A stretch of 34,731 bases of DNA from Gammaproteobacteria bacterium. Lineage in GTDB: Bacteria; Pseudomonadota; Gammaproteobacteria; Burkholderiales; Rhodocyclaceae. The position numbers were made by a program, and so were the translations under genes. Below, one piece after another: positions 485 to 24,994 of the stretch. The notes below the pieces were generated by a model. The model made no database searches. It was given only the letters and a program-made list of their open reading frames with translations, and was not told the origin of the DNA. Every line of letters begins with the position of its first letter. The first letter of the stretch is position 1. The stretch covers positions 1 through 34,731 of the forward strand of contig JAHJHI010000019.1 in NCBI GenBank assembly GCA_018824085.1, given 5' to 3'.

Positions 485-1471
485 TCAGTCGGCGCGTGAC
501 CGGCGCCAGGCATCCGGACGATAGGCCCAGGCCAGACACAGCAGGCCGAGCAGTGCAGGGATCCAGCCGAGGCGGGTCGGCACGGATTGCGTGCGCGAGA
601 ATGCGGGGTTCTGCAGCGCCCTGGCCAGGTCCTCCGGTGCCCGCAGCGCCCGGTATTCGAGACCGGTCTGCGCGGCCAGATCCTTCAGGTGCGGTGCTTT
701 CAGGCTGGAGAGGTGTTCAGTGCCACTGGCCACGCTGCGGGTGATCGCCCGGCCGTTCTCGTCGACCATGTTTTCCGTTCTGTCGCTCGTGCCATGGCGT
801 CCGCGCGTTGCCGAATCCGTCTGCGCGACTTCGTCGGCCTTCCAGTAGCCAAGAGGCCGGCCGTCCGGATCGAACTTCGGGATCGGGCTCAGCGTGTCGC
901 CACCGGTGCCGACGATCAGCCCTTTCACCAGCCCCGGTTCGCCATCGAACGTCGGGCGCATCGTCGGGTGCAGCGGGGGCGACTCCTGTCCGTCGGTAAT
1001 GAAGACCAGCGTGGGGGCCGGCTCCATCGCCTTGAGCGCACGGATCGATGAAAAGAGGCCCTTCGACACTTCGCTCGCGCCGGCCCAGGCCATCTGTCCA
1101 TTGATGTTGGATAGCGTCGCCAGCAGTTCGTGGTAGTTGCCGCAGACCTCGACCGGCGTCATCAGCGCCAGCAGCCGGTACTCGTTGAACACGCCCCAGC
1201 CGACGCTGGAGCCGCAGGGCAGGCTGCGCAGCGACGCCGCCAGGCTGCGCTTGGCATAGGCGAGCCGGCTGACGGGCTTGCCGTCGATCTCGTAGTCGAG
1301 CGTGTTCATGCTCTGCGTGATGTCGAGCACGATCAGGTGGTGATAGCTGCGCCCGGGTACCGGCAGCGGCGGCAGTACGGCGGCAAGCGCGAACAGCAGC
1401 GCGGCCGCAGTGAACGGCAGCACCTGCGCGTGGCGCGCGCGCGCCAGCAGCACGCGTGGCGACGGGATCAC
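485..1471 (-). CDS. mxaL: MxaL-like VWA-domain membrane protein (cluster 1)
   Basis: This 328-residue protein is the last gene of the first six-gene operon. MxaL is one of the proteins (with MxaA and MxaK) shown in Methylobacterium to be needed for calcium insertion into methanol dehydrogenase. The protein has one N-terminal membrane segment (about 17-37) followed by a von Willebrand A domain. Its metal-site motif is D50-I-T52-Q-S54, with Thr in place of the usual first Ser. A second VWA hallmark, ITDGQE, follows. A C-terminal hydrophobic helix lies near residues 305-318. I chose GTG at 1471 because it overlaps the mxaK-1 stop as GTGA. Compared with the second copy (19498-20418) it carries an extra segment of about 20 residues before the conserved SGTEHLS. 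Confidence 0.82.
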   Translation of the reverse strand: MIPSPRVLLARARHAQVLPFTAAALLFALAAVLPPLPVPGRSYHHLIVLDITQSMNTLDYEIDGKPVSRLAYAKRSLAASLRSLPCGSSVGWGVFNEYRLLALMTPVEVCGNYHELLATLSNINGQMAWAGASEVSKGLFSSIRALKAMEPAPTLVFITDGQESPPLHPTMRPTFDGEPGLVKGLIVGTGGDTLSPIPKFDPDGRPLGYWKADEVAQTDSATRGRHGTSDRTENMVDENGRAITRSVASGTEHLSSLKAPHLKDLAAQTGLEYRALRAPEDLARALQNPAFSRTQSVPTRLGWIPALLGLLCLAWAYRPDAWRRSRAD

Positions 1472-2007
1472 GGCAGCCCCAGCGTGAAGGCCTTCATCGT
1501 CGTCACCGCGCGCTCGCTGTTCTGCGGCAACGGTGGCGCTTCGCTGGCAACCTCCTCGCGTTCGGGCGCGAGGCGCAATGCGCGCTCGAGGTTGTATTTG
1601 GCGTCCCAATGTTCCGGATTGATGCGCAGCAATTCGCGATAGCTGCCTTTCGACAGCTCTGCCAGCGGCAGCGATTTGCCGATGCTTTCAGGCCCGTACT
1701 GCAGCGCTTCGCGCAGATGGAGATTGCCGAGGTTGTAGAGCACGGACTGCAGCAGCGCGCCGCTGCTGTGGCGCGACAGATCCTTGTAGGCGCGTACCGC
1801 GCCCTCGTAGTCATTGCGGGCGGCCAGCGACATGGCGCGCGCGAATTCGGCTTCCGGCGACGACTGTGTCGCGGCGGCGTCGACCGCGCTGTCGACCAGC
1901 CGGTTGAAGTCGCGCGCCTGTGACAGCCGGTAGGCCTCCCAGGCGGCGTACAGCAGGCAGATGACGATGACGGATGCGAGCAGCGAGCCCAGGCTGCGCA
2001 GCTTCAT
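1468..2007 (-). CDS. mxaK: MxaK-like TPR-type protein (cluster 1)
   Basis: This is a 179-residue protein with one N-terminal membrane anchor (about 8-24) and a soluble, probably periplasmic, helical part. The stretches NDYEGAVRAYKDL, YNLGNLHLREAL and YNLERALRLAPE look like tetratricopeptide helices. MxaK in methylotrophs is required with MxaA and MxaL for active, calcium-loaded methanol dehydrogenase. The ATG at 2007 overlaps the mxaC-1 stop as ATGA, and its own stop overlaps the mxaL-1 GTG. The second copy has exactly the same length (179 residues) and keeps the YNLGNLH and YNLERAL signatures, which supports the shared assignment. Confidence 0.8.
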   Translation of the reverse strand: MKLRSLGSLLASVIVICLLYAAWEAYRLSQARDFNRLVDSAVDAAATQSSPEAEFARAMSLAARNDYEGAVRAYKDLSRHSSGALLQSVLYNLGNLHLREALQYGPESIGKSLPLAELSKGSYRELLRINPEHWDAKYNLERALRLAPEREEVASEAPPLPQNSERAVTTMKAFTLGLP

Positions 2008-3029
2008 GATTGCAACTCCTGTTTCCATGCGGGCCGGGTGATCAGCCGGATTGCGAGCGCCAGCGCGCCTGCGGCCAGCGCAACCACGAAGCACCAGGTC
2101 GAGAGGTCACGTCGCGGAATGCGTTCGGCGTAGTCGAGCGGCAGGTTCTGCTGTCGATCCACTTCGGCGACCGCCTGTTCGACCGCCTCCGGATCCTCCG
2201 CCTCGAACGCCTGGTAAGGCACGCCGGTGGATTGCAGGAAGCGGTGCAGCGCGGCCTCCGGCACATTGTCACTTTCGTCGGCGTCGAGGCCGAGGCTGAG
2301 TGCCGAGCGGATGAACACCCAATAGACGGCGATCCGGTTGCGCGTCAGCGCGCGGGCGATACGCTCGCGGATCTCCGGGTCCATCTGCGCGGCGCCGTCC
2401 GACACCAGCAGCAGGATGCGACTGCCCGAATAGGCGCGCCGCTCGAACTGTTCGGCGCCGGCCAGCAGTGCGCGTCCGATGTCGGTTTCCGACAGGCCGC
2501 GCCCGATGCCACCCGCCTCGATGGCCGCCTGCACCACGTCGCCGTGCTGCGTGAACGGCACGATCGGCAGCGGACTGGTGCTGAACAGCAGCAGTGCGTA
2601 GCGGTCTTCCGGGCGGCGCGCGGCAAACTCGCCGAGCAGGCGGCGCGCAACCTTGCCCTTGGATTCGTGCGTCGTGTCGATCGCCGGCTGACGCCCTTTC
2701 GGCACCAGCGCTTCGTCCATGCTGCGGCTGCGGTCGAGCACGATGACGATTTCCGCGCCGCGTCCGGTGCGCTGCACCTCGGTCGCGGGCTGCCCCAGCC
2801 CGGACAGGCCCAGCACCGCAGCCAGCATGGCGAGCGCCGCGGCGACGCGCCCGGCCAGCAGCAGCAGGTCGCCGAGCCGGTCGTGCGGCAGCCAGTCGAC
2901 GCAGCCGTAGTCGAGTGCATGGCGGCGGCGCGGCCACAGCGGCAGCAGCGCGAGCGGTGCCGCCAGCAGCCACAGCGGTGTCGTGAATTCGATCGCACCC
3001 GGCCACAGGCCCAGGGTCCATCCCGTCAT
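2004..3029 (-). CDS. mxaC: MxaC-like VWA-domain membrane protein (cluster 1)
   Basis: This is a 341-residue protein of BatA/MxaC architecture. Two N-terminal membrane segments (about 17-33 and 54-78) precede a VWA domain with the canonical metal site D99-R-S101-R-S103, and a C-terminal membrane helix sits near 311-331. The GRGLSETDIGRAL stretch supplies the later Thr and Asp of the site. It probably partners the MoxR ATPase and the other VWA proteins as a membrane-anchored assembly or metal-insertion complex for a PQQ dehydrogenase. ATG at 3029 overlaps the preceding stop as ATGA. The second copy has an acidic, Pro-rich insertion that this one lacks. Confidence 0.82.
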   Translation of the reverse strand: MTGWTLGLWPGAIEFTTPLWLLAAPLALLPLWPRRRHALDYGCVDWLPHDRLGDLLLLAGRVAAALAMLAAVLGLSGLGQPATEVQRTGRGAEIVIVLDRSRSMDEALVPKGRQPAIDTTHESKGKVARRLLGEFAARRPEDRYALLLFSTSPLPIVPFTQHGDVVQAAIEAGGIGRGLSETDIGRALLAGAEQFERRAYSGSRILLLVSDGAAQMDPEIRERIARALTRNRIAVYWVFIRSALSLGLDADESDNVPEAALHRFLQSTGVPYQAFEAEDPEAVEQAVAEVDRQQNLPLDYAERIPRRDLSTWCFVVALAAGALALAIRLITRPAWKQELQS

Positions 3030-3943
3030 GCGAGTGCCCGCCGTTCCAGCCTTGCGGCGCGCGAGCACAGCGTCACCGGTTCGACGCCTTCGGTCGGGCG
3101 GTCCGCGAAGAAGCGCGTCTGGGACGCGTCGAAGAACTGTTTCAGTTCGCCTTCCATGGGCTTGAGCCAGGGCGCGTGCAGCAGCAATGACGCCAGGTCG
3201 TGGCCGCGCACGACCTGGCCGGCTGTTTCATCGAGCGCCCGGTGCAGCCTGCGCCATACCGGAAGGGAGCCGCGTTCGAGCCGGCGCATCTCGATCGCCG
3301 CGCGGCTGAACGGCAGGCGCCGTCGTGCCTGCCATTGGCGCAGCGCGGCGAGCGCCAGCCACAGCGCGATCAGGGTTCCCGCCAGGTAGAGCGCGCCGTG
3401 CAGCCGGCGTTCCAGCGGTGCCGTGGCGATGTGCGGGGCCGGCGCGTCCGGGCGCATCTCTTCCAGTCCGGCGCGCGCGAGCACCACGGTCGGCGTGATC
3501 GGCGCCACCGTCAACGGCTGCGCCTGGGTCACGATGCGCCGGCCTTCCCGGGTCGTCGCGAGGTCGAGTGCCGGCAGTTCGATGGCGCGCAGTTCTTCCG
3601 GCACGTTGATGACCTGGTAGTCGAGTGCCAGCCAGCGCTGGCCGGCCGCGTCGTGCTCGATGCGCGCGTCGCGCCGCTCGAACCAGTTGCCGGTGCGCTC
3701 AAGCGCCGGCATTTCGGGCAGGTCGAGTGATTCGCCTTCGTGTTCCAGCGCTATGTGCTGCGTGACGACGTCTCCCAGCACATAGCCGAAGGGGCGAGGC
3801 GACACGACGTCCGGTGTGATCTGGACGATCTGTGCCGGCACGCTGCCGTCGGCGGCGGCCTGCGCGTGACAGGGCGGGCAGCACAGGATGGCCAGCGCCG
3901 CGCAGGCGCTGAGCAATCGCAGGCGCCAGTAACTGTGGTGCAT
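3026..3943 (-). CDS. mxaA: MxaA-like membrane protein (cluster 1)
   Basis: This is a 305-residue protein with a signal peptide (about 1-28, Cys-rich core, ending in HAQA), a periplasmic part (29-180) and one membrane helix (about 183-203), followed by a cytoplasmic Arg-rich tail. Conserved with the second copy are PFGYVLGD-V-TQ, RW-A-DYQ-IN-P and the ATAPLERR segment just before the helix. MxaA in Methylobacterium is needed for calcium incorporation into methanol dehydrogenase. I chose ATG at 3943, one base past the mxaS-1 stop; a longer start upstream would overlap mxaS-1 and lack a signal peptide at the N-terminus. The linker after the signal peptide is about 20 residues, against about 55 in copy 2. 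Confidence 0.78.
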   Translation of the reverse strand: MHHSYWRLRLLSACAALAILCCPPCHAQAAADGSVPAQIVQITPDVVSPRPFGYVLGDVVTQHIALEHEGESLDLPEMPALERTGNWFERRDARIEHDAAGQRWLALDYQVINVPEELRAIELPALDLATTREGRRIVTQAQPLTVAPITPTVVLARAGLEEMRPDAPAPHIATAPLERRLHGALYLAGTLIALWLALAALRQWQARRRLPFSRAAIEMRRLERGSLPVWRRLHRALDETAGQVVRGHDLASLLLHAPWLKPMEGELKQFFDASQTRFFADRPTEGVEPVTLCSRAARLERRALA

Positions 3944-3944
3944 G

Positions 3945-4796
3945 TCAGACGGCCTCGAAGAAATGGCGCGACAGGGCGTCCGCGTCAAAGCGCCCTGTCA
4001 TGTGGAAAGCGCGCATGCCGCGCGTGGTGAACAGCTTTTCCAGATCCGCGCGTCGCTGCGCGAAGGTGTCGCGCCACTGCCGGCGCACCAGCGGGCGCAA
4101 CCAAAGGCCGCGGCGATGGCCGTTTTCGATGTCGCGCAGCGCGAGCAGGCCGTCGCCTTCCGGCGCTTGCGGTTCGACCTCGTCCCAGATGACCATCGGC
4201 ACGACGTGTGCGTGCGACAGCAGGTCGAGTGCGGCGCCCAGTTGCGCCAGCGGCGCGTGGAAATCAGATGCGACGAAAACCAGCGCCTGCTTGCCGGCGA
4301 TGCGCATGCACGCTTCCGCAAGACCGGCGCCGGAGGGCTGGTCGGCGCGCGCATGAAGCAGCGATTCGCTCATCAGCACGCCCGCGCCGCGCGAACGCAT
4401 GGGCGCGAGCATGAGGTCGGTGCGTTCGTGGCGGTCGAAAGCCAGCATGCCCAGCGCGTCGCCCATGCGGAACGTGGCGTCGCCCAGCGAGCGCGCGAAT
4501 TCGGCCAGCCGCTCGAGCTTGCTGCCATCGGAGCCGAACGTCATCGAGGCGGACACATCCGCCAGCAGATAGACCGGAATGCCTGAACGCTGCCGGTTCA
4601 CCCGCACCAGCCAGCGTTGTTCCGGGTCGCGGATGCTGGCGCGCAGGTCGAGGCGGCGCGGGTCCGGCCGATCGAACAGCGCCTGATGGGCGATGAATTC
4701 CTGGCCGCTGCCGGTGGCCGTGCCACGGTGCGCACCGGGGCGCTGTCCGCCGACTCGGGCCGGCATGCGGTAGTGGAAATCGCGGGGTGCGCTCAT
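3945..4796 (-). CDS. mxaS: MxaS-like DUF58 protein (cluster 1)
   Basis: This is a 283-residue soluble protein of the DUF58 family that travels with MoxR ATPases. The DUF58 signature DRPDPRRLDLRAS lies at about 42-54, and a VWA-like metal site D80-V-S82-A-S84 follows. No signal peptide or membrane segment is seen, so it should act in the cytoplasm, probably as a MoxR partner. ATG at 4796 lies 26 bases past the moxR-1 stop; this is the only intergenic gap in the operon larger than one base. The ribosome site is weak. It is clearly homologous to 23106-23975, with near-identical DUF58 and metal-site segments but a more variable C-terminal half. Confidence 0.82.
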   Translation of the reverse strand: MSAPRDFHYRMPARVGGQRPGAHRGTATGSGQEFIAHQALFDRPDPRRLDLRASIRDPEQRWLVRVNRQRSGIPVYLLADVSASMTFGSDGSKLERLAEFARSLGDATFRMGDALGMLAFDRHERTDLMLAPMRSRGAGVLMSESLLHARADQPSGAGLAEACMRIAGKQALVFVASDFHAPLAQLGAALDLLSHAHVVPMVIWDEVEPQAPEGDGLLALRDIENGHRRGLWLRPLVRRQWRDTFAQRRADLEKLFTTRGMRAFHMTGRFDADALSRHFFEAV

Positions 4797-4822
4797 GGGG
4801 TCGGGGCTGCCGGGCGGCGCGG

Positions 4823-5842
4823 TCAGGGCGTGGCCACGCGCTCCAGCATCTGCGCCACCAGCGCATCGGCCAGCTCGGTGCGCCGCAGCTCGTAGACCGG
4901 CGTGAAGAAGACCCGATGGACCAGCGTCGACGGCAGCACCGCACGGATGTCTTCCGGCGTCAGGTAGTCGCGTCCGTCGAACCACGCGACGACCCGTGCC
5001 GCACGCATCAGCATGCCCATGCCGCGCGGGCTGGCGCCGGCGAGAACGAGGCGCGCCATGTCGACCCCCTCGATCTGCAGGCCGTATTTCACCGGATCGC
5101 TGGTGGCCGACCAGATGTCCATCGCATAGCGCTGCAACGCGTCCGACGCGGAGACCGCCTGCTGGATCGCGGCGCCGATGGTATTCATCTGCATCCAGTC
5201 GACGACGCCCGGCGTGACCCGCTCGATCAATGCGTCGGTGTCGTGGAAGCGCGGGTCGAACACCAGCGCGCGGCGCGTGTCCTCGTCCGACGGCGTCAGC
5301 ATGCGCAGCTCGAACATGAAGCGGTCGCGCGCGGCAGACGCCAGCTCGAACGTTTCTTCCTTTTCCACCCGGTTACGGTCCGCGAACACCGTCATGTGCG
5401 GGAAGCTGTACTCGCGGTTGAACGCGGACAGCGTGCGTTCCGCCATCGCGCGCAGCAGCAGTGACTGCACCTGCGGGCGGGCGCGGTTGATTTCGTTGAA
5501 GAAGAAAGTCGTCAGCCGCTCGCCGTGGCGCAGCAGCGGACCGGGTTCGATGCGCGGCTTGCCATCGCCGTCGACATAGGTGTGATACACGAGGTCGTTC
5601 GGCATCAGGTCGACGGTGCCCTCGACCCGCTCGAAGTCGCCGCCGATGGCGCGTGCAAACGCACGCAGCACGGTGGTCTTGCCGACGCCCACGTCGCCTT
5701 CAAGCAGCACGTGGCCGCGTGCGAACAGCGCGACGTTGATGAGTCGCAGTGTCCCGTCCTGACCCACCACCGCATGGCGAACTTCGTCTTCAACGCGCAG
5801 CGCCAGGCCACGCCAGTCCTGCAAAGCTTCCTGAGAGAGCAT
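4823..5842 (-). CDS. mxaR: MoxR-family AAA+ ATPase, MxaR-like (cluster 1)
   Basis: This is a 339-residue MoxR-type AAA+ ATPase, first gene of the cluster 1 operon. Walker A is GDVGVGKTT (49-57). Walker B is FFFNEINRA (113-121), where many MoxR proteins have DEINR. The arginine-finger region ARDRF lies at 171-175. It should remodel the VWA and DUF58 partners encoded next to it to mature a PQQ dehydrogenase. ATG at 5842 is preceded by GAAGG at a suitable distance; an in-frame TTG directly before it (5845) is the alternative. From residue 35 to 181 it differs from the cluster 2 ATPase by only five conservative changes, whereas the C-terminal third has drifted more. It is divergent from msrA. Confidence 0.88.
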   Translation of the reverse strand: MLSQEALQDWRGLALRVEDEVRHAVVGQDGTLRLINVALFARGHVLLEGDVGVGKTTVLRAFARAIGGDFERVEGTVDLMPNDLVYHTYVDGDGKPRIEPGPLLRHGERLTTFFFNEINRARPQVQSLLLRAMAERTLSAFNREYSFPHMTVFADRNRVEKEETFELASAARDRFMFELRMLTPSDEDTRRALVFDPRFHDTDALIERVTPGVVDWMQMNTIGAAIQQAVSASDALQRYAMDIWSATSDPVKYGLQIEGVDMARLVLAGASPRGMGMLMRAARVVAWFDGRDYLTPEDIRAVLPSTLVHRVFFTPVYELRRTELADALVAQMLERVATP

Positions 5843-6014
5843 CAACTAACCTTCGGGCTCGGTTTATGGACGGGAGATTGCCTCGCACGATACAAGGTTT
5901 GTTTCCCGCGCGCATGCTGCAGCGCGAAGCACCTGTCTCACTTTCCGGATGAACCTCCGGCGCATCGGCGGGTCGATCACGCACCACCGGACGACATTCA
6001 CGGGAGGAGGAATC

Positions 6015-6569
6015 ATGGAGACTCTGGCGACACAAACCGCCGTATTCGGCGGCGGCTGCTTCTGGTGCCTGGAAGCCGTATTCAACCGCGTGGAAGGTGT
6101 GGCGCGCGTCGAACCCGGCTACGCGGGCGGGCATGTCGACAACCCCACCTACGAGCAGGTGTGCTCCGGCAAGACCGGCCACGCGGAAGTGCTGCGCGTC
6201 ACCTTCGATCCCGCGGTCGTGTCCTTCGCGGATCTGCTGGACGTGTTCTTCGCGTTGCACGACCCGACGACAGAGAACCGTCAGGGCAATGACGTGGGCA
6301 CGCAGTACCGTTCGGTCATCTTCTGCCGCGACGCGGAACAGGCCGGGACGGCGCGGGCGGTGATGGCGCGCCTGGCCGCCGAAGCGAGCTACTCGGCACC
6401 CATCGTGACCCGGGTGGAAGGCACCGTGCCGTTCTGGCCGGCCGAGGACTACCACGTCAGCTACTACGAACACAATTCGATGCAGCCCTACTGCATGGCC
6501 GTCGTCGCGCCCAAGGTTGCGCGGCTGCGCAAGCTGTTCGGTACGCGGGTGAAAACTGTCCTGCAGTAG
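6015..6569 (+). CDS. msrA: peptide-methionine (S)-S-oxide reductase MsrA
   Basis: This is a 184-residue enzyme that reduces methionine-S-sulfoxide in oxidised proteins. The catalytic signature GGGCFWC-E lies near the N-terminus (about 13-20). The family motifs YAGG, Y--V-(S)GKTGHAE-(V)-V-(F)DP and GTQYRS--F are all present, as is the C-terminal PAEDYH--Y followed by PYC. I chose ATG at 6015 because it follows a very strong GGGAGGAGG site (6002-6010) and places the active site where the family has it; an upstream ATG at 5949 gives an unconserved extension. No signal peptide, so cytoplasmic. Divergent from the moxR-1 operon. Confidence 0.93.
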
Positions 6570-12776: not shown

Positions 12777-13208
12777 TCAGTGCCGCTCGCCGAGCGCGCG
12801 GTCGAGCTTGTCCTCGACCTCGCCGATGACCGCCGCCAGTGAATTGGTGGACTCGCCGGCGAACTGCTTGATCGCCTCGCGCAGGTCGGCGAATTCCTTC
12901 TGCATCGACGCATTCAGTTCGGTGAAGCGCGACGCTTCCGCCTGATCGGCCAGCAGGCGCTGTTCGCGCATTTCCTTCGCGTGGCGGCGCGCTTCGAACA
13001 GCGTCGAGGTGTGCAGCGTGAGCGTGTAGGCGCCGAGCAGCACGAGCAGCAGTGCGGTGCCGCCGAGCAGGATGATGCCGGCCGGCGCATCGATGCTGGC
13101 GACAAGCAGTGACACGCTGACCGGCATGACCAGCACCTGCCAGTTGGCGATGACGAATGCGGAAAGCAGGCCCAGTACCAGAATGCCCAGTGCGCCAATC
13201 AGTTTCAT
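12777..13208 (-). CDS. LapA-domain (DUF1049-like) membrane protein
   Basis: This is a 143-residue protein with two N-terminal membrane helices (about 4-22 and 42-65). A charged, helical cytoplasmic tail (about 68-143), probably coiled coil, follows. The pattern resembles the lipopolysaccharide-assembly LapA/YciS (DUF1049) family, although the tail is longer than usual. A role in envelope biogenesis is likely but not shown by the sequence. Convergent with tamB; its start at 13208 is 77 bases from the stop of the MFS gene, which is on the same strand upstream of it. Confidence 0.65.
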   Translation of the reverse strand: MKLIGALGILVLGLLSAFVIANWQVLVMPVSVSLLVASIDAPAGIILLGGTALLLVLLGAYTLTLHTSTLFEARRHAKEMREQRLLADQAEASRFTELNASMQKEFADLREAIKQFAGESTNSLAAVIGEVEDKLDRALGERH

Positions 13209-13285
13209 GCGGTGTCTCCCCGGTTTGCAATGGCGCGATTGTCACGCATATGTCGTCCGCCCGCCATCGGGGCGGCGTGTGTGCG

Positions 13286-14479
13286 TCACGCGGGGGCCGC
13301 CTCCATGCGTGCTTCGCGGATCGGCAGGTTCACCAGCGCGGCCGCGGCCGCGAGTGCGGCGTCGGCGTACCACATCCACTGGTAGTCACCGGTGTGCGCG
13401 ACCGCGAGCCCGCCCAGCCAGGCGCCGAAGAAGCCGCCGATCTGGTGCGACAGCAGCGTGAGGCCGAACAGCGTCGCCAGATAGCGCGTGCCGAACAGCT
13501 TGCCGACGACGCCGGCGGTCGGCGGCACGGTGGCCAGCCAGGTCACGCCGAGACCGATGGCGAACAGATAGAAGGTCCATTCGGTGCGCGGCGCTGCGAG
13601 ATAGATGACGATGAGCAGCGCGCGCGATGCGTACATCGAGAACAGGATCATCTTGCTGCGCCAGCGCCCCACGGCCCAGCCGGCAAGCAGGCTGCCGGCG
13701 ACGTTCGCGAGTCCGATCAGCGCCAGCGCATTGCCGGCGACCGAAGCCGGCAGGCCGCACAGGCCCACTTCGCCCGGCAGGTGGGTGACCAGAAAGGCGA
13801 TGTGGAACCCGCAGGTGAAGAAGCCGGCGTGCAGCAGCAGATAGCTGCGGTCGCGCAGCGCGTCGCGCACCGCGTGGCGCAGACCGCCGCTGCCGTCCGC
13901 GTGCGCATGGCTGACGCCGGGTTCGCGCGCACGCAGCGCACGGGCCAGCGGCAGCGCCGCCAGCGCGGCAACGGCCAGCGCGTACATCGCGCCCATCCAG
14001 CCGACGGTGGCGATCAGTCTTTGCGCGAGCGGTGCGAACACGAACTGGCCGAGCGAGCCGCCCGCATTGATGATGCCGGAGGCCTGGCCACGCTTTGCCA
14101 CGTCGAGCCGGCGCGTGGCGGCGCCGATGAGCACGGAGAAGCTGCCGGCGCCGGAGCCGGCGGCGGACAGCAGACCCAGCGCGACCACCATGCCGGTGGT
14201 GCTGTCCATGAAGGGCGTCAGCGCGGTGCCGACAGCGAGCACGACGAGGCCGGCGGCGAGCACGCGGCCCGGGCCGTAACGGTCGGCCACGGCGCCGGCG
14301 ACGGGCTGGATGGCACCCCAGACGAACTGGCCGATGGCCAGCGCAAAGCTCAGGCTGACCACACCGAGGCCGGTCGTCGTGTTGATCGGAGAGATGAACA
14401 GGCCGGACGACTGGCGGATGCCCATGGTCACCATCAGCAGCAGGGCGGCGCAGAGGACTGCGGACAGCGAGGCGGGCAT
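13286..14479 (-). CDS. MFS transporter
   Basis: This 397-residue protein has about 12 hydrophobic segments and a central cytoplasmic loop (about 185-205). The MFS signature after helix 2 reads GAVADRYGPGRVL, close to the G---DR-G-R-- consensus. Its general character (MGIRQSSGLFISPI at the first helix) matches the group that includes oxalate/formate and monocarboxylate permeases. The substrate is unknown; a one-carbon acid would fit a methylotroph but nothing in the sequence proves it. Divergent from the YnfA-family gene with 97 bases between them. Confidence 0.85.
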   Translation of the reverse strand: MPASLSAVLCAALLLMVTMGIRQSSGLFISPINTTTGLGVVSLSFALAIGQFVWGAIQPVAGAVADRYGPGRVLAAGLVVLAVGTALTPFMDSTTGMVVALGLLSAAGSGAGSFSVLIGAATRRLDVAKRGQASGIINAGGSLGQFVFAPLAQRLIATVGWMGAMYALAVAALAALPLARALRAREPGVSHAHADGSGGLRHAVRDALRDRSYLLLHAGFFTCGFHIAFLVTHLPGEVGLCGLPASVAGNALALIGLANVAGSLLAGWAVGRWRSKMILFSMYASRALLIVIYLAAPRTEWTFYLFAIGLGVTWLATVPPTAGVVGKLFGTRYLATLFGLTLLSHQIGGFFGAWLGGLAVAHTGDYQWMWYADAALAAAAALVNLPIREARMEAAPA

Positions 14480-14576
14480 GACGGTCGGACTTTCGCGGCG
14501 GGCAGGGATGTCGGCCGCAGGCTAGCACAGGGCGACGCATCGGTAGCAGGGGCGGACTTCGGGGTATCTTCGCGCA

Positions 14577-14909
14577 ATGATGAATGTGCTCAACACCACG
14601 GCGCTGTTCTGCCTGACCGCGCTGGCCGAGATCGTCGGCTGCTATCTGCCATGGCTCTGGCTGAAGGCGCGTGCGCCGGTCTGGGTGCTGCTGCCGGCGG
14701 CGCTGTCGCTGGCCGCGTTCGTCTGGCTGCTGTCGCTGCACCCGACGGCGGCCGGGCGCGTCTATGCTGCCTACGGCGGCGTCTATGTCTGTGTCGCCGT
14801 GCTGTGGCTCTGGCTCGTCGACGGCGAACGTCCGCACGTCTGGGATGTCACCGGTGTGGCGGTCGCCCTTGCCGGCATGGCCATCATCATGTTCGCGCCG
14901 CGATCCTGA
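14577..14909 (+). CDS. YnfA/UPF0060 family inner-membrane protein
   Basis: This is a 110-residue protein with four membrane helices. It matches the UPF0060 pattern: [19 protein letters not shown] at the start, [18 protein letters not shown] in the middle, and a last part with [20 protein letters not shown]. Family members resemble small multidrug-resistance transporters, but a transport role is not established. Start at ATG 14577; a second in-frame ATG follows directly. Confidence 0.88.
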
Positions 14910-14962
14910 ATTTCCGCCCCGCATCTGTTGCGCGCGGCGCCACCACCCACAGGAGTCAAACC

Positions 14963-15742
14963 ATGGACCTGCAACTGAAGAACCGTCTCGCGCTGGTGTC
15001 CGGCAGTACCGCCGGCATCGGCCACGCCATCGCCGAAGCGCTGCTGCGCGAGGGCGCGCGCGTCATCGTCAATGGCCGCACGCAGGCGGCTGTCGACACC
15101 GCCGTGGCCGGGCTGGGTACCGGCGCCATCGGTTTTGCCGGCGACCTGTCGACCGCAGCCGGCGCCGACGCGCTGGCCCGCGCCCATCCGGATATCGACA
15201 TTCTGGTCAACAACCTGGGCATCTTCGAGCCGAAAGCCTTCGAGGACATTCCGGACGAGGACTGGCTGCGCTTCTTCGAAGTGAATGTGCTGAGCGGCGT
15301 GCGTCTGGCGCGCGCCGTGCTGCCCGGCATGAAGCGGCGCAACTGGGGCCGCATCCTGTTCATTTCGAGCGAGAGCGGCGTGCAGATTCCGGCGGAAATG
15401 ATCCACTACGGCATGACCAAGTCGGCGCAGATCGCGATCGCGCGCGGGCTGGCCGAGTCGGTCGCCGGTACCGGCATCACCGTCAACAGCGTACTGCCGG
15501 GCCCGACCCGTTCGCGCGGTGTCGGCGACTTCGTGCAGGCGATGGCGGACGAGAGCGGGCAGACGTTCGACGAATTCGAGAAGGCGTTCTTCGAGACGGT
15601 GCGTCCGACCTCGCTGATCAAGCGTTTTGCCACGCCCGAGGAAGTGGCCTCCATGGTGGTTTATCTCGCCAGTCCGCTTGCGTCGGCGACGACCGGTGCG
15701 GCGCTGCGCGTCGATGGCGGCGTCGTGAAGAGTGCCTTCTGA
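14963..15742 (+). CDS. short-chain dehydrogenase/reductase (SDR)
   Basis: This is a 259-residue classical SDR with a Rossmann fold. The cofactor motif is GSTAGIG (about 14-20) and the NNLG segment stands for NNAG. The catalytic Ser sits in FISSES and the Tyr-Lys pair in YGMTK. The C-terminal substrate loop is long, and the end reads GAALRVDGGVV. The Arg in VNGRT after the second strand hints at NADPH preference. Start ATG 14963 has AGGAG at 14951-14955. The 3' end overlaps the start of the DUF2127 gene by 11 bases, so the two are probably co-transcribed. Substrate unknown. Confidence 0.9.
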   Translation: MDLQLKNRLALVSGSTAGIGHAIAEALLREGARVIVNGRTQAAVDTAVAGLGTGAIGFAGDLSTAAGADALARAHPDIDILVNNLGIFEPKAFEDIPDEDWLRFFEVNVLSGVRLARAVLPGMKRRNWGRILFISSESGVQIPAEMIHYGMTKSAQIAIARGLAESVAGTGITVNSVLPGPTRSRGVGDFVQAMADESGQTFDEFEKAFFETVRPTSLIKRFATPEEVASMVVYLASPLASATTGAALRVDGGVVKSAF

Positions 15743-18466: not shown

Positions 18467-18976
18467 TCAGCGCAGCAGTGCCATGGAAAAGGTGTCGAAG
18501 TACCTGCCATCGACACGGAACGCGCGCGCGCACAGCCCTTCGGTCTTGAATCCCATGCGCTGGTACAGGTTCATCGCAGCGAGATTGTCGATGCGCACCG
18601 TCAGTTCGATGCGCGTCATGCCGGCGGCCCAGGCGGCGTCGATGGCCCGTCGCATCAGCAGGCCGCCGATGCCGAGGTGGCGTGCGCGCCCGACGAGGCC
18701 GATGCCCAGCGTGCCGACGTGGGCGCGCGCCTCGCCGTGCGTCGGCAGCACGTCGCACCAGCCGCAGACCCGGCCGTCCAGCAGCGCGACGAAATGCACC
18801 TGCCCGCAGGCGACGATGTTCCGGTAGAAAGCCAGCACGTCGCTCCGTGGCGGTGCGCGCGTGAACGCGAGGTAGCGCTTTTCTCGTGCGATTTCATCGA
18901 GCACCGGACGCAGCGCGGAGAAATGCCTGGCGGCCAGCGGCTCGATGGCCAGACGCGTGCCGAGTGCTCCGGTCAT
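18467..18976 (-). CDS. GNAT-family N-acetyltransferase
   Basis: This is a 169-residue GNAT protein. The acetyl-CoA binding motif is present as VGRARHLGIGGLLMRRAID (Q/RxxGxG/A variant), preceded by the HVGTLGIGL strand and followed by IELTVRIDN-AAMNLY-RMGF, the usual C-terminal motif B. It resembles RimI-like or phosphinothricin-type acetyltransferases acting on small amines or protein N-termini; the substrate cannot be read from sequence. Start ATG 18976. It lies downstream of the cluster 2 operon on the same strand, after a gap of about 200 bases. Confidence 0.87.
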   Translation of the reverse strand: MTGALGTRLAIEPLAARHFSALRPVLDEIAREKRYLAFTRAPPRSDVLAFYRNIVACGQVHFVALLDGRVCGWCDVLPTHGEARAHVGTLGIGLVGRARHLGIGGLLMRRAIDAAWAAGMTRIELTVRIDNLAAMNLYQRMGFKTEGLCARAFRVDGRYFDTFSMALLR

Positions 18977-19177
18977 GTCGCCGGCGTGCCGGCAGGGCTG
19001 GCGGAAAGGGATGCGGAAGCGGTCGCAGGCAGTGGCATCGTCTGCTCTCCATCCAAAGCGGCCAGCCATTCTGCATGAAATCCGCGCCGCGATGCGGCGG
19101 GCCGGCCCGCTTCATGACAGCGCGGCGTGCGCTGAAAACGCGGGTTCAGATTCGCGCGGCTGGCGCAAGCCGTCGCG

Positions 19178-19492
19178 TCAGGCGTCCTCGACGAGGAAGA
19201 GGCGCACGAGCGCCGTGACGGCACGTGCCTTGTGAGCCGTGTCGCCGCCGGCGGCGATGGACAGGCCGCAGCCCTGCGGGTAGCGCACGACGCGTCCGCG
19301 GAAATCGATTTCCAGTGTCCCCTCCAGCACGATGCCGGTGTGGCCGCGGCAGCACCAGTCCGGTTCGACGAATTCCGGTGTGAGCTCGAGCAGGCGCAGT
19401 TGCCGCTCGCCCAGCCGGACCGCCTTGCAGCGCGCGCCAGCGGCAAGCGGCTGCCAGGGCAGTGATGCGAAGTCGATGGCGTCCGGCTGCAT
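19178..19492 (-). CDS. small cupin-domain protein at the end of mxa cluster 2
   Basis: This is a 104-residue single-domain cupin. The first cupin motif is G-H-TGIVLEGTLEIDF (His near 51, Gly-rich turn) and a second His lies in GGDTAHKAR. There is no signal peptide, so it is cytoplasmic. It begins 5 bases after the mxaL-2 stop, so it is very likely the seventh gene of that operon; cluster 1 has no counterpart. A metal-binding or sensing role in dehydrogenase maturation is possible but is only inferred from position. A weak hairpin (CGGCT-6-AGCCG, 19157-19172) follows the stop. Confidence 0.78.
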   Translation of the reverse strand: MQPDAIDFASLPWQPLAAGARCKAVRLGERQLRLLELTPEFVEPDWCCRGHTGIVLEGTLEIDFRGRVVRYPQGCGLSIAAGGDTAHKARAVTALVRLFLVEDA

Positions 19493-19497
19493 GGCGT

Positions 19498-20418
19498 TCA
19501 GTGCGCTCTTTCCGGGCGGAAGCGCAGCGCCAGCACGGCCAGCGCGATCAGCGCCGGCACCCAGCGCAGGTCGGTCGGCACCGGGCGCGACGTGGCCAGA
19601 CCCTGGCTGCGCATGGCATTGCCCAGCGCGTCCGGACTGTCCATCGTCGCGTAGTCGAGACCGACCTGGGTGGCGATCTCCCGCAGGTGCGTCTCGCGCC
19701 GGGCAGACAGGTGCTCGCTGCCGGGCACGCGCCGGCCGTCGGCGGTACGCGCGTCGGGCTGCATTACCTGATCCGCGCGCCAGTAGCCGGTGCGCCGGCC
19801 GTCGTCGTCGCTCTTCGGGATCGGTTGCGCGGCGTCGCCGCCGGCGCCGATGACCCAGCCGCGGATCTCGCCCGGCGTGATGTCGTCGAAACCCGGACGG
19901 CTGCCGGCACGCAGCGGCGGCGCTTCCTGACCGTCGCTGACGAAAATGACGTTCGGACTGTCGCCCGATTCCTTTGCGACGCGCACCGACCAGAACACGC
20001 CCTTCGCAACTTCGCTGGAATTGCCCCAGCGCATGCGCCCGTCGATGTTGTCGAGCGAGGCGAGCAGGTCGCTGTAATTGGCGCAGACCTCGATCGGCGC
20101 GAGCAGCAGCAGCGTGCGGTATTCGGCGAAGGCGCCCCAGCCGACGCGCGAGCCGCACGGCAGTTCGCGCAGCGCGCGCCGGGCCGACGCGCGGGCGTAT
20201 GCGAGGCGGCTCACCGGCTGGCCGTCGAGTTCGTAGTCCTCCACATTCATGCTCTGCGTCAGGTCGAACACCACCAGCGTGTCATAGCTGTCGCGCGGCA
20301 GATCGATGCGCGGCATCAGCAGCGCGACCAGCAGCAGCAGCAGCGCGATCACGAGCGCGCGCGAGTCGCGTTCGAACAGGCTCGCGAACAGCGAGCGCAG
20401 GAAGACGCGGACCCTCAT
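19498..20418 (-). CDS. mxaL: MxaL-like VWA-domain membrane protein (cluster 2)
   Basis: This 306-residue paralogue of the protein at 485-1471 is roughly half identical by eye. One N-terminal membrane helix (about 20-36) is followed by a VWA domain with metal site D52-L-T54-Q-S56, again with Thr where Ser is usual. The conserved blocks are DGQPVSRLAYA, LPCGSRVGWG-F-EYR, EVCANY--LLASL-NI-G and VSDGQEAPPL. A C-terminal hydrophobic helix lies near 285-299. The first-copy insertion before SEHLS is missing here. ATG at 20418 overlaps the mxaK-2 stop as ATGA. The expected role is calcium or metal insertion into a PQQ alcohol dehydrogenase. Confidence 0.82.
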   Translation of the reverse strand: MRVRVFLRSLFASLFERDSRALVIALLLLLVALLMPRIDLPRDSYDTLVVFDLTQSMNVEDYELDGQPVSRLAYARASARRALRELPCGSRVGWGAFAEYRTLLLLAPIEVCANYSDLLASLDNIDGRMRWGNSSEVAKGVFWSVRVAKESGDSPNVIFVSDGQEAPPLRAGSRPGFDDITPGEIRGWVIGAGGDAAQPIPKSDDDGRRTGYWRADQVMQPDARTADGRRVPGSEHLSARRETHLREIATQVGLDYATMDSPDALGNAMRSQGLATSRPVPTDLRWVPALIALAVLALRFRPERAH

Positions 20419-20954
20419 GGCAGGTCCAGCCGCACGCCCTGCAGCGTGGTGACGACGCGTTCGCGCGGCACCTCGCCGCTGTCGTCCTCGACGATGGACG
20501 GCTCGATCTCGGGCGCCAGCCACAGCGCGCGCTCCAGGTTGTAGCGCGCGTTCCAGTCGTCGGGGCGCGTGCGCAGCGCGTCGCGGTAGCGTTGCTTCGC
20601 GAGTTCGATCAGTGGCAGCGCGTCGTTGATGCCGCCTTCGCCGCTGGCCAGCGCGCCGCGCATGTGCAGGTTGCCGAGGTTGTACTGCGCGCCCTGGCGC
20701 AGGTCGGCACGCTTGCCGTCGATGAGCGCCTTCCATGCCTTGGCGGCGGCTTCGGCGTCGCCGCCTTCGGCCAGCCGTTTGGCACGCGCAAAGCGGGCTT
20801 CCGGCAGGTCGGCTTCGAGCGACCCGGCGTCGGCCGAGGCGATGGCGGCATTGACCTCGGTGGCCCGTTGCAGTTGCAGCGCGTGCCAGCCCGCAAGCAG
20901 GCCGGTGGCCAGCGCGGTGGCGCCGAAGGCGATGTGCAGTGTCAGTCGTTTCAC
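20415..20954 (-). CDS. mxaK: MxaK-like TPR-type protein (cluster 2)
   Basis: This is a 179-residue protein, the same length as copy 1. One N-terminal membrane anchor (about 6-22) precedes an Ala-rich helical domain with TPR-like segments GDAEAAAKAWKAL, YNLGNLHMRGAL and RYNLERALWLAPE. I chose GTG at 20954 because it overlaps the mxaC-2 stop as GTGA and puts the Lys-Arg just before the anchor; an upstream ATG (21005) would add about 17 residues inside mxaC-2. Role by family: one of three proteins needed for metal loading of methanol dehydrogenase. Confidence 0.8.
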   Translation of the reverse strand: MKRLTLHIAFGATALATGLLAGWHALQLQRATEVNAAIASADAGSLEADLPEARFARAKRLAEGGDAEAAAKAWKALIDGKRADLRQGAQYNLGNLHMRGALASGEGGINDALPLIELAKQRYRDALRTRPDDWNARYNLERALWLAPEIEPSIVEDDSGEVPRERVVTTLQGVRLDLP

Positions 20955-22036
20955 AGCCAGCTCCGAAGCAGCATTGATCGGTAGATGAGCAGTCCGGTGC
21001 AGCACAGCACGGCCAGCGCGATGAACAGCCGGCTGTGGTCCTGACGCGGGATCTGCTCCTGAAAGTCGAGCGGGAAATTCTGTTGCCGGCCGACTTCCGC
21101 GACCGCCTTGGCGAGGTCCTCGGGACTGTCGGCCTGGTACAGGTGATAGGGCGTGGGCAGCGACTGGAAGTAGCGGTGCAGCGACACCTCGGGGATGGAT
21201 TCCTGTGTCGCCCAGGCGTTGCGGGCTTCGATCGAGGCCGGGTCGTCGCCCGGCGCGTCCGGCGGCCCGGCGCTCGCCTCGTCGCCCAGTTCCGGCGCGT
21301 TCAGCGTGCGCAGGTAGAGCCAGTGCAGCGCGATGCGGTTTGCCTGAAGTCCGCTGCGGATGCGCTTGCGCGTCGGCTCGTCGAGATGGGCGCCGCCGTC
21401 GGTCACCAGCATGATGATGCGGCTGCCCGAGTAGGCGCGCTGGTCGAACGACTCGATCGCCGCGATGAGGCCGCGTCCGACGTTCGTGTCGGACAGCCCG
21501 CGGCCGAGGCCGCCGGCCTTGATGCCGGCCTGCACCACGGCGTCATGCTGCGTGAAGGACACGACATTCATCGGTCCGGCGCTGAAGAACATCAGCGCAA
21601 AGCGGTCGTCCGGACGCTGGTCGACGAACTTCGACAACAGGTCGCGCGCCACGGCGGACTTCGGTTCGCCGCGCGAATCGATCTGGTGCAGCAGCGAGTG
21701 CGGGTCGATGGTGCGCCAGTCGCTCGGCTTCATCTTCGCGTCCATGCTGCGGCTGCGGTCCATCAGGATGAGGATTTCCGCGCCGCGCCCGGTGCGCGTG
21801 ACCGATGTTTCCGGGCTGCCCGGACCGGCCAGCGCGAGCACGATGGACAGCAGGCCGAGTACCGCCAGCGCGCGCCACGCGAAACCGGCGATGCGCCCGG
21901 CGCGGTCGTGCGGCAGCCACGCGAGGTGCGGAAACAGCAGCGTGTCGCGCCGGCGCCGCAGCAGCGGCAGCACGGCGAGCGGCAACAGCAGCAGCGCCCA
22001 GGGCTGCGTGAAATCAATGTCGGTGAACGGGTTCAT
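20951..22036 (-). CDS. mxaC: MxaC-like VWA-domain membrane protein (cluster 2)
   Basis: This is a 361-residue paralogue of 2004-3029. Two N-terminal helices (about 12-27 and 52-71) are followed by a VWA domain with canonical metal site D93-R-S95-R-S97 and GRGLSDTNVGRGL, then a C-terminal helix near the end. It shares SFTQHDAVVQAGI, RAYSGSRIIMLV-DGGA and FPLDFQEQIPR with copy 1. A Pro/Asp-rich insertion of about 20 residues (after LNAPELGDE) is absent from copy 1. ATG at 22036 overlaps the mxaA-2 stop as ATGA. Confidence 0.82.
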   Translation of the reverse strand: MNPFTDIDFTQPWALLLLPLAVLPLLRRRRDTLLFPHLAWLPHDRAGRIAGFAWRALAVLGLLSIVLALAGPGSPETSVTRTGRGAEILILMDRSRSMDAKMKPSDWRTIDPHSLLHQIDSRGEPKSAVARDLLSKFVDQRPDDRFALMFFSAGPMNVVSFTQHDAVVQAGIKAGGLGRGLSDTNVGRGLIAAIESFDQRAYSGSRIIMLVTDGGAHLDEPTRKRIRSGLQANRIALHWLYLRTLNAPELGDEASAGPPDAPGDDPASIEARNAWATQESIPEVSLHRYFQSLPTPYHLYQADSPEDLAKAVAEVGRQQNFPLDFQEQIPRQDHSRLFIALAVLCCTGLLIYRSMLLRSWL

Positions 22037-23109
22037 CGTTCGTGCCGTTTTTCCAGGGCGCGCAACTGCTTCGCCAGCGCGCGCACCGACAGCGCGTCGG
22101 CGGGCAGTCCGGTGCCGAAGAAGAATTCGGCCGATTGCGTGTAGAAGCGCTCGATGTCGGCGCGGCGCGCTTCCAGGTGTGGCGCGCGCTCGAACAGACG
22201 GTGCAGCGACGCGCTTTGCGTGCTGCGCCCGGCGGTGCGGTCGAACGCCAGATGCAGTGCCTGCCAGCTTTCGGGGGCGGTGTCGGCGCGCCCGCGCATG
22301 TCCTGCAGCGCACGGGCGAACGGCCGGTTGTGCCGGGCACGCCAGTCGCGCCATACCCACCACAGCGCCCAGCCGAGCAGCGTGGCGATGCACAGGCCGC
22401 CCCACAGCATGATGCGGCGCTCGATCGGCGCGGTGGCGATGACCGGTGCGTCGCGATCCGGTTGCAGTGCGTCGAGCGCGCCCTGCGCGAAGGTGTTGCG
22501 CGGGGTCAGCGGCGCGATGCTGAACGGCCAGGACGCGACCGACAGCGCGCGTCCGTCCGTTGTGCCCAGCGTCCATTCGGGCAGCGTCAGCGCGATCAGC
22601 GATTGCGGCGCATTGATGATCTGGTAGCTCATGACGAGCCAGCGCCGGCCGTCGGCGTCGCGTTCGATGCGCCCGGTCTGGCGTTCCAGCCACACGCCGA
22701 GGCGCTGCGGCGGCGGCAGCGCGGCCGGTTCGAATTCGCGGCCGTCATGCGACAGCCGCACGCGCTGCGTGAGCACGTCGCCCAGCACATGCCCGAAGGC
22801 GCGCGGCTGCTGCACGACGGCCGGCGGTGCGGCGATGACCGGCTCCGGCGTGGTGGCCGGCGCGTCTGCGGGCGCCGCCTGGGTGGCTTGCGCATCGGTT
22901 GGTTCGGTTGCCTGCGTGGCGTCGGGCGTCGTGCCGGCCATGCCGGATGCCGCGGCGTCGACCGATGGCGGGACGGCGACATCGGCCTGCGCCTGACTGG
23001 CGCCCGCCTGCAGCAGCAACGCGGCGGCAAACAGCGCGGACAGGACGACGGACACGCCGGCGCTGCGCCGGCCGTGCGCAGGCAGGGGGCCGCGAGACAG
23101 TGGATTCAT
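22033..23109 (-). CDS. mxaA: MxaA-like membrane protein with long Ala/Pro/Thr linker (cluster 2)
   Basis: This is a 358-residue protein. A signal peptide (about 15-41, ending SQAQA) is followed by a low-complexity Ala/Pro/Thr/Gln linker (about 43-100). The conserved MxaA periplasmic part comes next (FGHVLGDVLTQ, RRWLVMSYQIINAP), then ATAPIERR, a membrane helix (about 233-253) and a cytoplasmic tail. The linker accounts for most of the extra length over copy 1. ATG at 23109 overlaps the mxaS-2 stop as ATGA. The role by family is calcium incorporation into methanol dehydrogenase; the exact target here is unknown. Confidence 0.78.
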   Translation of the reverse strand: MNPLSRGPLPAHGRRSAGVSVVLSALFAAALLLQAGASQAQADVAVPPSVDAAASGMAGTTPDATQATEPTDAQATQAAPADAPATTPEPVIAAPPAVVQQPRAFGHVLGDVLTQRVRLSHDGREFEPAALPPPQRLGVWLERQTGRIERDADGRRWLVMSYQIINAPQSLIALTLPEWTLGTTDGRALSVASWPFSIAPLTPRNTFAQGALDALQPDRDAPVIATAPIERRIMLWGGLCIATLLGWALWWVWRDWRARHNRPFARALQDMRGRADTAPESWQALHLAFDRTAGRSTQSASLHRLFERAPHLEARRADIERFYTQSAEFFFGTGLPADALSVRALAKQLRALEKRHER

Positions 23110-23975
23110 GCGGTGGCCTCGAAGAAGTACTGTGACATCGCCTCGGCGTCGAAGGCGCCGTGGATGTAGAAGGCGCGCAGGTCGCGCGCGGAGAAGAAGG
23201 CGTCGAGTTCGGCCCGCCGCGCGGCGACGCCTTCGCGCCATTGCGCGCGCAGCTTCGGGCGCAGGAACAATGTGCGGCGCACGCCGCTTTCGGCGTCGCG
23301 CAACGGGGCCACCGCGTCGTGCGGCGGCGGCTCGATTTCCGCCGGGTCCCACACGACGACCGGCACGACGAAGGTGTGCGACAGCAGGTCGAGTACGGCA
23401 CCCAGGCGGTCCAGCGGCCAGTGGAAGTCGCTCACGAGGAACACCAGCGCCTCGCGCCCGGTGAGCTGCATCACGGCCTCTTCGAGACCTTCGATGCCGC
23501 CGGCGGTGGTGTCGCAGCCACGAAGGCTGTCCGCCATCACGCCGCCGAGGCCGCGGCTCAGCGTGGCGGGCATGCAGAGGTCGGGGCGTTCGCGGTGGTC
23601 GAACGCCAGCATGCCCAGCGCGTCACCGATGCGGAACGCGCTGTGGCCGAGCGAGGCGACGAAGTCCGCGCTGACCTGCAGCTTGCTGCGCTGCGCGCCG
23701 AAGTTCATCGATGCGGACACGTCGACCAGCAGCTGCACCGCGACGCCGACGCGCTGACGGTTCACGCGCACCAGCCAGTCACCGGTAGTGCTGCGCACGC
23801 TGGCGCGCAGGTCGAGGCGGCGCGGGTCCGGGCGGTCGTACAGACTCATGTGCGACACGAATTCCTGCCCGCTGCCGAGACTCGTGCCGGGGTGCGAGCC
23901 GGGGCGCTGCCCGCTCGCCCGATACGGCAGGCGGTAGTGGAATTCCTGCACGGCGTCATCGCTGCGCTGGCTCAT
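23106..23975 (-). CDS. mxaS: MxaS-like DUF58 protein (cluster 2)
   Basis: This is a 289-residue cytoplasmic DUF58 protein. It shows DRPDPRRLDLRAS (about 47-59), VNRQR and a metal site D85-V-S87-A-S89. Blocks shared with copy 1 include GSGQEF, FRIGDALGMLAFD, LVFLVSDFH and LDLLSH-FVVP-V-WD. It is predicted to be a partner of the adjacent MoxR ATPase. ATG at 23975 overlaps the mxaR-2 stop as ATGA, tighter than the 26-base gap at the same junction in cluster 1. Confidence 0.82.
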   Translation of the reverse strand: MSQRSDDAVQEFHYRLPYRASGQRPGSHPGTSLGSGQEFVSHMSLYDRPDPRRLDLRASVRSTTGDWLVRVNRQRVGVAVQLLVDVSASMNFGAQRSKLQVSADFVASLGHSAFRIGDALGMLAFDHRERPDLCMPATLSRGLGGVMADSLRGCDTTAGGIEGLEEAVMQLTGREALVFLVSDFHWPLDRLGAVLDLLSHTFVVPVVVWDPAEIEPPPHDAVAPLRDAESGVRRTLFLRPKLRAQWREGVAARRAELDAFFSARDLRAFYIHGAFDAEAMSQYFFEATA

Positions 23976-24994
23976 CGCGGCGTGGCCACCTTTTCCATGA
24001 TCTGCGCGACCAGCGCGTCGGCGATCTGCGCGCGGCGCATTTCGTAGACCGGCGTGAAGAACACGCGGTGTCCCAGCGTCGAGGGCAGGATGGCCTGCAC
24101 GTCGTCCGGCACGAGGTGGGTGCGTCCGGCCATCCACGCGACGACGCGCGCGGCGCGCAGCATCGCCATCATGCCGCGCGGGCTGGCGCCGGCGAGGATG
24201 AGCTTCTTCATGTCGACACCGTCGATGCGCACGTCGAACGCGGACGGGTTCTGGCTTGCGTCCCACAGGTCCATCACGTAGCGCTCCAGCGATTCGCTGG
24301 CGGTGACGGTGCGCTGGATGGCGGATGCGATGCGGTTCAGCGACTGCCAGTCGACGACGTCGGGCGCGACCTGCTGCAGCAGTTCGTCGACGTCGTGGAA
24401 GTCCGGGTTGAACACGAGCGCGCGCCGGACCGCCGGATCGCGCGGCGTTTCCATGCGCAGCTCGAACATGAAGCGGTCGCGGGCGGCCGATGCCAGCTCG
24501 AACGTCTCTTCCTTCTCCACCTTGTTGCGGTCGGCGAACACCGTCATGTGCGGGAAACTGTATTCACGGTTGAACGCGGACACCGTGCGTTCGGCCATCG
24601 CGCGCAGCAGCAGCGACTGCACCTGCGGGCGGGCGCGGTTGATCTCGTTGAAGAAGAAGGTGGTCAGGCGCTCGCCGTGGCGCAGCAGCGGGCCGGGCTC
24701 GATGCGCGGCTTGCCTTCGCCGTCGACATAGGTGTGATAGACGAGGTCGTTCGGCATCAGGTCGACGGTGCCCTCGACCCGTTCGAAGTCGCCGCCGACG
24801 GCGCGTGCGAAGGCGCGCAGGATGGTCGTCTTGCCGACGCCGACATCGCCTTCAAGCAACACGTGGCCGCGCGCGAAAAGTGCCACGTTGATGAGCCGCA
24901 CCATGTTGTCCTGGCCGATCACGGCCTTGCGAACTTCGCTCTCCACACGCAGTGCGGCATTGCGCCAGTCCTGCAGCTGTTCCTCTGTTGTCAT
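23972..24994 (-). CDS. mxaR: MoxR-family AAA+ ATPase, MxaR-like (cluster 2)
   Basis: This is a 340-residue MoxR ATPase and the first gene of cluster 2. Walker A is GDVGVGKTT (49-57), Walker B is FFFNEINRA (113-121), and ARDRF follows. I chose ATG at 24994 because AAAGGA lies at a proper distance upstream; an upstream ATG at 25084 would add an unconserved Arg-rich extension. Its numbering aligns without gaps to copy 1 through the core. The upstream neighbour on the same strand (25161-25703) ends in a hairpin, so this operon probably has its own promoter in 24995-25128. Confidence 0.88.
   Translation of the reverse strand: MTTEEQLQDWRNAALRVESEVRKAVIGQDNMVRLINVALFARGHVLLEGDVGVGKTTILRAFARAVGGDFERVEGTVDLMPNDLVYHTYVDGEGKPRIEPGPLLRHGERLTTFFFNEINRARPQVQSLLLRAMAERTVSAFNREYSFPHMTVFADRNKVEKEETFELASAARDRFMFELRMETPRDPAVRRALVFNPDFHDVDELLQQVAPDVVDWQSLNRIASAIQRTVTASESLERYVMDLWDASQNPSAFDVRIDGVDMKKLILAGASPRGMMAMLRAARVVAWMAGRTHLVPDDVQAILPSTLGHRVFFTPVYEMRRAQIADALVAQIMEKVATPR

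Follow-up and report, generated by a model that had tools for sequence, protein, structure and literature searches.

Two mxaRSACKL-type gene sets on one contig of a Methyloversatilis-like genome and their probable association with the dehydrogenase XoxF

The accessory genes mxaRSACKL are known from the mxaFJGIRSACKLD cluster of the MxaFI methanol dehydrogenase, and calcium insertion is the role given for MxaACKL in the passages of PMC6028718 that concern them. Several such sets can occur in one genome. The relevant parts of PMC4109929 report 2-4 of them in Methylophilaceae, one following mxaFJGI and the others lying elsewhere in the genome, and the two strains listed in its Table 4 that lack mxaFJGI have xoxF and two sets; no tie of set type to dehydrogenase type is described in these parts. 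In Sphaerotilus, mxa accessory genes are found with XoxF5 and without mxaFI, and the sections of PMC13300288 dealing with them describe fragments of an MxaFI-associated mxa cluster, not a separate branch. In this work we analysed a window of 34,731 nucleotides, meaning the whole stretch of DNA presented above (G000:C17:1-34731, from a genome assembly of 4.28 Mb in 56 contigs), whose loci have their best named matches in Methyloversatilis. It carries two complete mxaRSACKL-type sets of six genes each, both on the minus strand, named here cluster 1 (485-5842) and cluster 2 (19498-24994). Both are probably maturation sets of the MoxR/VWA kind from a clade that travels with the lanthanide methanol dehydrogenase XoxF; the calcium-type, MxaF-linked set is a third one elsewhere in the genome.

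Both clusters follow the order R-S-A-C-K-L on a single strand, namely a MoxR-type AAA+ ATPase, a DUF58 protein, an MxaA-like protein, a VWA protein (MxaC), an MxaK-like protein and a second VWA protein (MxaL). Domain matches and reading frames bear out an earlier note on this DNA, which had described two full co-linear sets of the same order and strand with about 13 kb of other genes between them (~13.7 kb by our count). Gene content, order and homology are those of the mxaRSACKL part of mxaFJGIRSACKLD; unlike that part, the window sets have no mxaFJGI next to them, make up clades of their own, and have xoxF either linked to them or present in the same genome. The note had also placed a pyrroloquinoline quinone (PQQ) dehydrogenase gene beside one copy only, and this holds: the first 38 residues of xoxF (1..117, minus strand, running off the contig end; 97% identity over 37 amino acids to Methyloversatilis XoxF) adjoin cluster 1, and no such gene adjoins cluster 2.

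A search of the genome for MoxR ATPases revealed a third MxaR-like gene on contig C47, within a cluster mxaF-J-G-I-RSACKL-D, in which we assumed the names J, G, I and D from position and general knowledge. This third set after mxaF, together with the tandem xoxF genes at 6 of 12 loci of the genus, overturns the claim that only maturation genes are duplicated. Clusters 1 and 2 share 76 (R), 56 (S), 39 (A), 49 (C), 42 (K) and 48% (L) identity, and all six cluster 2 proteins are closer to their cluster 1 counterparts than to those of the C47 set (54, 33, 31, 39, 38 and 32%, respectively). Judged from these alignments, the likeness of the window clusters is not due to chance, and each protein is homologous to its counterpart in the mxaF-linked set (31-54% identity, cluster 2 against C47).

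Trees of the joined R, S, C and L proteins were obtained for 86 rows (LG+G4) and for 52 rows (mixture model) by quick searches, with Shimodaira-Hasegawa-like approximate likelihood ratio test (SH-aLRT) values as the only support. In both, the three set types of the genus form separate clades, each with a support of 100. The cluster 2 type nests with Steroidobacteraceae, Lysobacteraceae, Rhodocyclaceae metagenome-assembled genomes, Variovorax, Sphaerotilus and Burkholderiaceae (support 99 in both trees), and cluster 1 is sister to this clade, the two together having a support of 100 in both. The branch that separates them at a deeper level from the mxaF-linked rows has a star in the 86-row tree and a weak value (66) in the 52-row tree. 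Methylophilaceae rows fall outside the cluster 1+2 clade in both trees, unlike the window sets; Sphaerotilus mobilis (L082), whose genus likewise has accessory genes alongside XoxF5, lies within the clade of cluster 2.

Forcing clusters 1 and 2 of the genus together cost 92.7 log-likelihood units (approximately unbiased (AU) test, p = 0.00012; 25 rows, LG+G4). The ratio of nonsynonymous to synonymous substitution rates (dN/dS) was between 0.05 and 0.57 across all 18 genes (NG86; the window or L020 against two or three relatives), in line with purifying selection. A duplication within the genus, or a recent one, is rejected by the trees, the AU test and dN/dS. The tree test laid down in the earlier note thus gave separate conserved clades for the two copies, and the recent or decaying duplicate that it had named as the opposite outcome is ruled out; on this comparative evidence both window sets are old and kept, and neither is decaying. 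The XoxF of the genus is nearest by identity to that of Variovorax and Sphaerotilus (81-82%), and the group with which cluster 2 falls in the tree is Steroidobacteraceae, which share 69-74% XoxF identity with the genus. Since the nearest relatives thus differ, cluster 2 may have moved between lineages.

We surveyed 13 genomes of the genus, which hold three (6 genomes), two (4) or one (3) MxaR copies. The cluster 1 type occurs in 12/13, the cluster 2 type in 10/13 and the mxa-linked type in 7/13. Downstream of cluster 1, xoxF was found at 12/12 loci (tandem in 6, single in 2 and cut by a contig end in 4), and mxaF lies upstream of the third type at 7/7 loci. Neither gene is close to cluster 2 in any of the 10 genomes: in the window the nearest dehydrogenase gene is the xoxF beyond cluster 1, and the nine other loci, examined over ~8 to 18 kb each, gave no XoxF/MxaF match of at least 55% around it. 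The surroundings of cluster 2 (uvrA, response regulator, histidine kinase, IclR, PNPOx, DUF1097, OpgC) are largely, not fully, conserved in the genus. Where both clusters are on one contig they are ~19-35 kb apart in seven genomes and 1.2 Mb apart in G011; G003 and G008 have them on separate contigs.

A second contig of the same genome, C46, also ends within xoxF (residues 422-600; L150, G000:C46 13734-14270), after which come an MxaJ-like gene and two further genes, to which we gave the names xoxJ and xoxG from their position in L042. Because C17 and C46 both end inside xoxF, the locus was probably broken in the assembly by near-identical xoxF copies, two or more in number. For Methyloversatilis universalis FAM5, XoxF1 and XoxF2 with consecutive locus tags are given in PMC5023235, a paper from which the term mxa is absent.

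The XoxFs of the genus read DEWDFDG and the MxaF on C47 reads DEWDYAG, in a motif that we take to be the place of the extra aspartate. According to the part of PMC12628762 that treats it, this additional residue marks lanthanide dependence. The genome also encodes a divergent XoxF-like dehydrogenase (L027, G000:C25 6814-9159) with 55% identity to the XoxF of the genus and the motif DEWDYDG; among the genus matches listed, G011 and G005 have a match of similar identity.

Beyond the genus, xoxF lies 3-6 kb upstream of a cluster-2-like set, on the same strand, at 17 of 80 named loci; the tree includes 8 of these, and for the other 9 the assignment comes from the best match only. None of the loci that the trees place within the cluster 1+2 clade shows linkage to mxaF. 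Among the loci outside this clade, mxaF is the linked gene at 13 and xoxF at a single one (L140). Piscinibacter (G392) has a second, divergent set ~8.5 kb away from xoxF and on the opposite strand; this set clusters with L108 and not within the well-supported cluster 1+2 clade.

Outside the genus the clade of cluster 2 comprises 33 rows, for which 31 genomes were searched. XoxF (69-82% identity) was found in all 31, and a single MxaR, meaning that the set of this clade is the only one, in 30. MxaF was found in 0/31 among the matches listed, which reach far below MxaF scores; four matches of 42-46% to XoxF, read individually, have at most 44% identity to MxaF. XoxF is the only match at E ≤ 1e-40 in 4/31 genomes, whose completeness is not given. 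As these genomes were selected for holding a set of the cluster 2 clade, the base rate matters. It was taken from an even sample of 370 genomes of the class, with XoxF/MxaF-like genes called at E ≤ 1e-120 and the best few candidates per genome scored. MxaR occurred in 14/370 and XoxF/MxaF-like genes in 36/370, all 14 being among the 36 (Fisher p = 4.7e-16, not corrected for relatedness), and in one of the 14, G155, the only XoxF/MxaF-like match is of 48%.

Taken with xoxF at 12/12 cluster 1 loci and mxaF at 7/7 third-set loci, the presence of XoxF in 31/31 and of MxaF in 0/31 genomes of the cluster 2 clade suggests that the calcium/lanthanide divide most likely has the third set on one side and both window sets on the other. 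A calcium versus lanthanide division between the two window copies, as proposed in the earlier note, is not supported, because the set linked to the calcium enzyme is the third, located on C47, and the clade to which both window sets belong is the XoxF-associated one.

Several observations weigh against an association of the two window sets with XoxF. The xoxF-linked set L140 lies outside their clade, most sets of the cluster 2 clade do not adjoin xoxF, MxaR is missing from 22 of the 36 genomes of the class in which XoxF/MxaF-like genes occur, and few residues separating xox-linked from mxa-linked proteins passed our thresholds. Published systems point the same way, at least in the sections of the sources that address them: according to a 2024 review XoxF does not depend on mxaACKLD and mxaRSEH (PMC11845868), verrucomicrobial methanotrophs carry xoxF but lack mxaFI and the accessory genes (PMC7907005), the mxa cluster of M. 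extorquens AM1 drops 8-256-fold with lanthanum (PMC6414531), and MxaR and MxaS drop with lanthanum in Methylocella (PMC9291206). The drop in the last two organisms is as expected of calcium-side sets.

How the two window sets would act can be sketched from the calcium-insertion role given for MxaACKL. Together with A, K and the DUF58 and VWA proteins (S, C and L), the MxaR ATPase would remodel apo-XoxF in such a way that PQQ and lanthanide can be seated. Cluster 1 would be the local set of the xoxF locus; cluster 2, with its separate ancestry, would be a further set on the XoxF side, maintained for some particular condition or client.

Other clients for cluster 2 were also considered. The two window clusters could each be devoted to a different dehydrogenase, calcium versus lanthanide or two distinct PQQ enzymes, in which case the client of cluster 2 would be an enzyme other than XoxF, for example Mdh2 or ExaF/PedH. 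Although cluster 2 is without an adjacent structural gene and several further PQQ dehydrogenases are encoded in the genome, we regard this as unlikely: outside the genus its clade provides the sole set in 30 of the 31 genomes, all with XoxF, including the four with XoxF as the only match at the above threshold; the calcium-type MxaF has its own third set; and ExaF-like matches (39-41%) also occur in two genus genomes that have cluster 1 and no cluster 2. An assignment of cluster 2 to the second, tandem XoxF copy of the genus appears less likely still. The link is suggestive, since tandem xoxF genes were found at 6/6 fully read loci of genomes with cluster 2 and a single one at 2/2 without it, and the interrupted C17 and C46 contigs suggest near-identical copies in the window genome too. 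However, four cluster 2 genomes, that of the window included, are cut inside xoxF, the xoxF start in the window resembles the distal copy and not the extra proximal one, and the genomes are few and related.

Cluster 2 could also have no client of its own and be a redundant extra XoxF set, retained for its effect on dosage or for growth under other conditions. Its gene content, selection strength and clade association, which are the same as or similar to those of cluster 1, would fit, as would the 2 of 12 genus genomes with cluster 1 that do without it. We consider this improbable, to about the same degree as a division of clients between the window clusters, in view of the far-diverged sequences (A 39%, K 42% and C 49%), the separate ancestry and the conservation of each type in its own clade.

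The individual genes of cluster 1, all on the minus strand, are mxaR-like (4823..5842, 339 amino acids; AAA_3 and AAA_lid_2 above cut-off, 76% identity to its cluster 2 counterpart, Walker A GDVGVGKTT), mxaS-like (3945..4796, 283 amino acids, start uncertain; DUF58 57.9 bits), mxaA-like (3026..3943, 305 amino acids; no Pfam or NCBIfam match, 39% identity to its cluster 2 counterpart, and aligning with MxaA of the mxaF-linked set), mxaC-like (2004..3029, 341 amino acids; VWA 45.2 bits, DRSRSM motif), mxaK-like (1468..2007, 179 amino acids; TPR_2 below cut-off, 21.1 of 27) and mxaL-like (485..1471, 328 amino acids; VWA_2 28.1 bits, DITQSM motif). The S, C, K and L assignments rest also on alignment, as do all those of cluster 2. 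The latter, again on the minus strand, consists of mxaR-like (23972..24994, 340 amino acids; AAA_3 and AAA_lid_2 above cut-off), mxaS-like (23106..23975, 289 amino acids; DUF58 66.6 bits), mxaA-like (22033..23109, 358 amino acids; no Pfam or NCBIfam match), mxaC-like (20951..22036, 361 amino acids; VWA_2 39.6 bits), mxaK-like (20415..20954, 179 amino acids, GTG start; no Pfam match) and mxaL-like (19498..20418, 306 amino acids; VWA_2 24.4 bits, below the curated cut-off of 27). Membership in a Bat-type MoxR-VWA operon found no support in the NCBIfam models, which are Leptospira models (cut-off 380 for BatA, with 36.2 and 30.7 bits reached; cut-off 175 for BatC, with 17 reached).

Gene starts were chosen among candidates, and the cluster spans and overlap counts depend on them. 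With these starts, the 4-bp overlaps that the earlier note had seen in both sets hold at 5/5 junctions of cluster 2 and at 3/5 of cluster 1, where R/S and S/A do not overlap. The end of cluster 2, previously put at 19178, was corrected to 19498: positions 19178-19492 are a separate gene of 104 amino acids, 6 bp downstream of mxaL, that weakly matches DHCW-cupin (31.6 bits, where the cut-off is 70). It was rejected as a member of cluster 2 because it has no counterpart in the related loci compared.

The two-component system at 27803-29981 was considered as a dedicated regulator of the sets. This was not supported, since closer paralogues occur elsewhere in the same genome than near mxaF (the response regulator has a 55% identical paralogue on C36 and 45% identity to one near mxaF on C47). 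In Piscinibacter (L160, G392:C15 10972-14181) a histidine kinase and a response regulator lie directly upstream of a cluster-2-type set, and this regulator is 51% identical to the window regulator at 29331-29981, ~4 kb upstream of cluster 2. Between the clusters, an open frame of 861 amino acids (13157-15742, plus strand) matches its family (SDR oxidoreductase) only in the last ~260 codons, the rest being mostly antisense to an MFS gene (13286-14479).

Multiple sets per genome (Methylophilaceae) and accessory genes with XoxF5 but without mxaFI (Sphaerotilus) are already known; the xoxF-travelling mxaRSACKL branch is the part for which we found no report in the open-access literature, a search with most subscription papers outside its range. 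To our knowledge, how lanthanide rather than calcium enters a PQQ dehydrogenase is an open question, and a branch travelling with xoxF, not mxaF, supplies named candidate genes for it; one genus, in which a single cell holds both branches, offers an internal control. More tentatively, many beta- and gammaproteobacteria might possess a dedicated lanthanide MxaRSACKL machine ('xoxRSACKL') for seating PQQ and lanthanide in their XoxF, with Methyloversatilis keeping two distinct lanthanide machines, plus one calcium machine in about half of its genomes. The proposal that the window sets are XoxF-side ones is lineage-specific, because published XoxF systems do without the accessory genes and the mxa genes of AM1 and Methylocella drop with lanthanum. 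If a dedicated lanthanide machine does exist, the published statement that XoxF can do without one would itself hold only for certain lineages.

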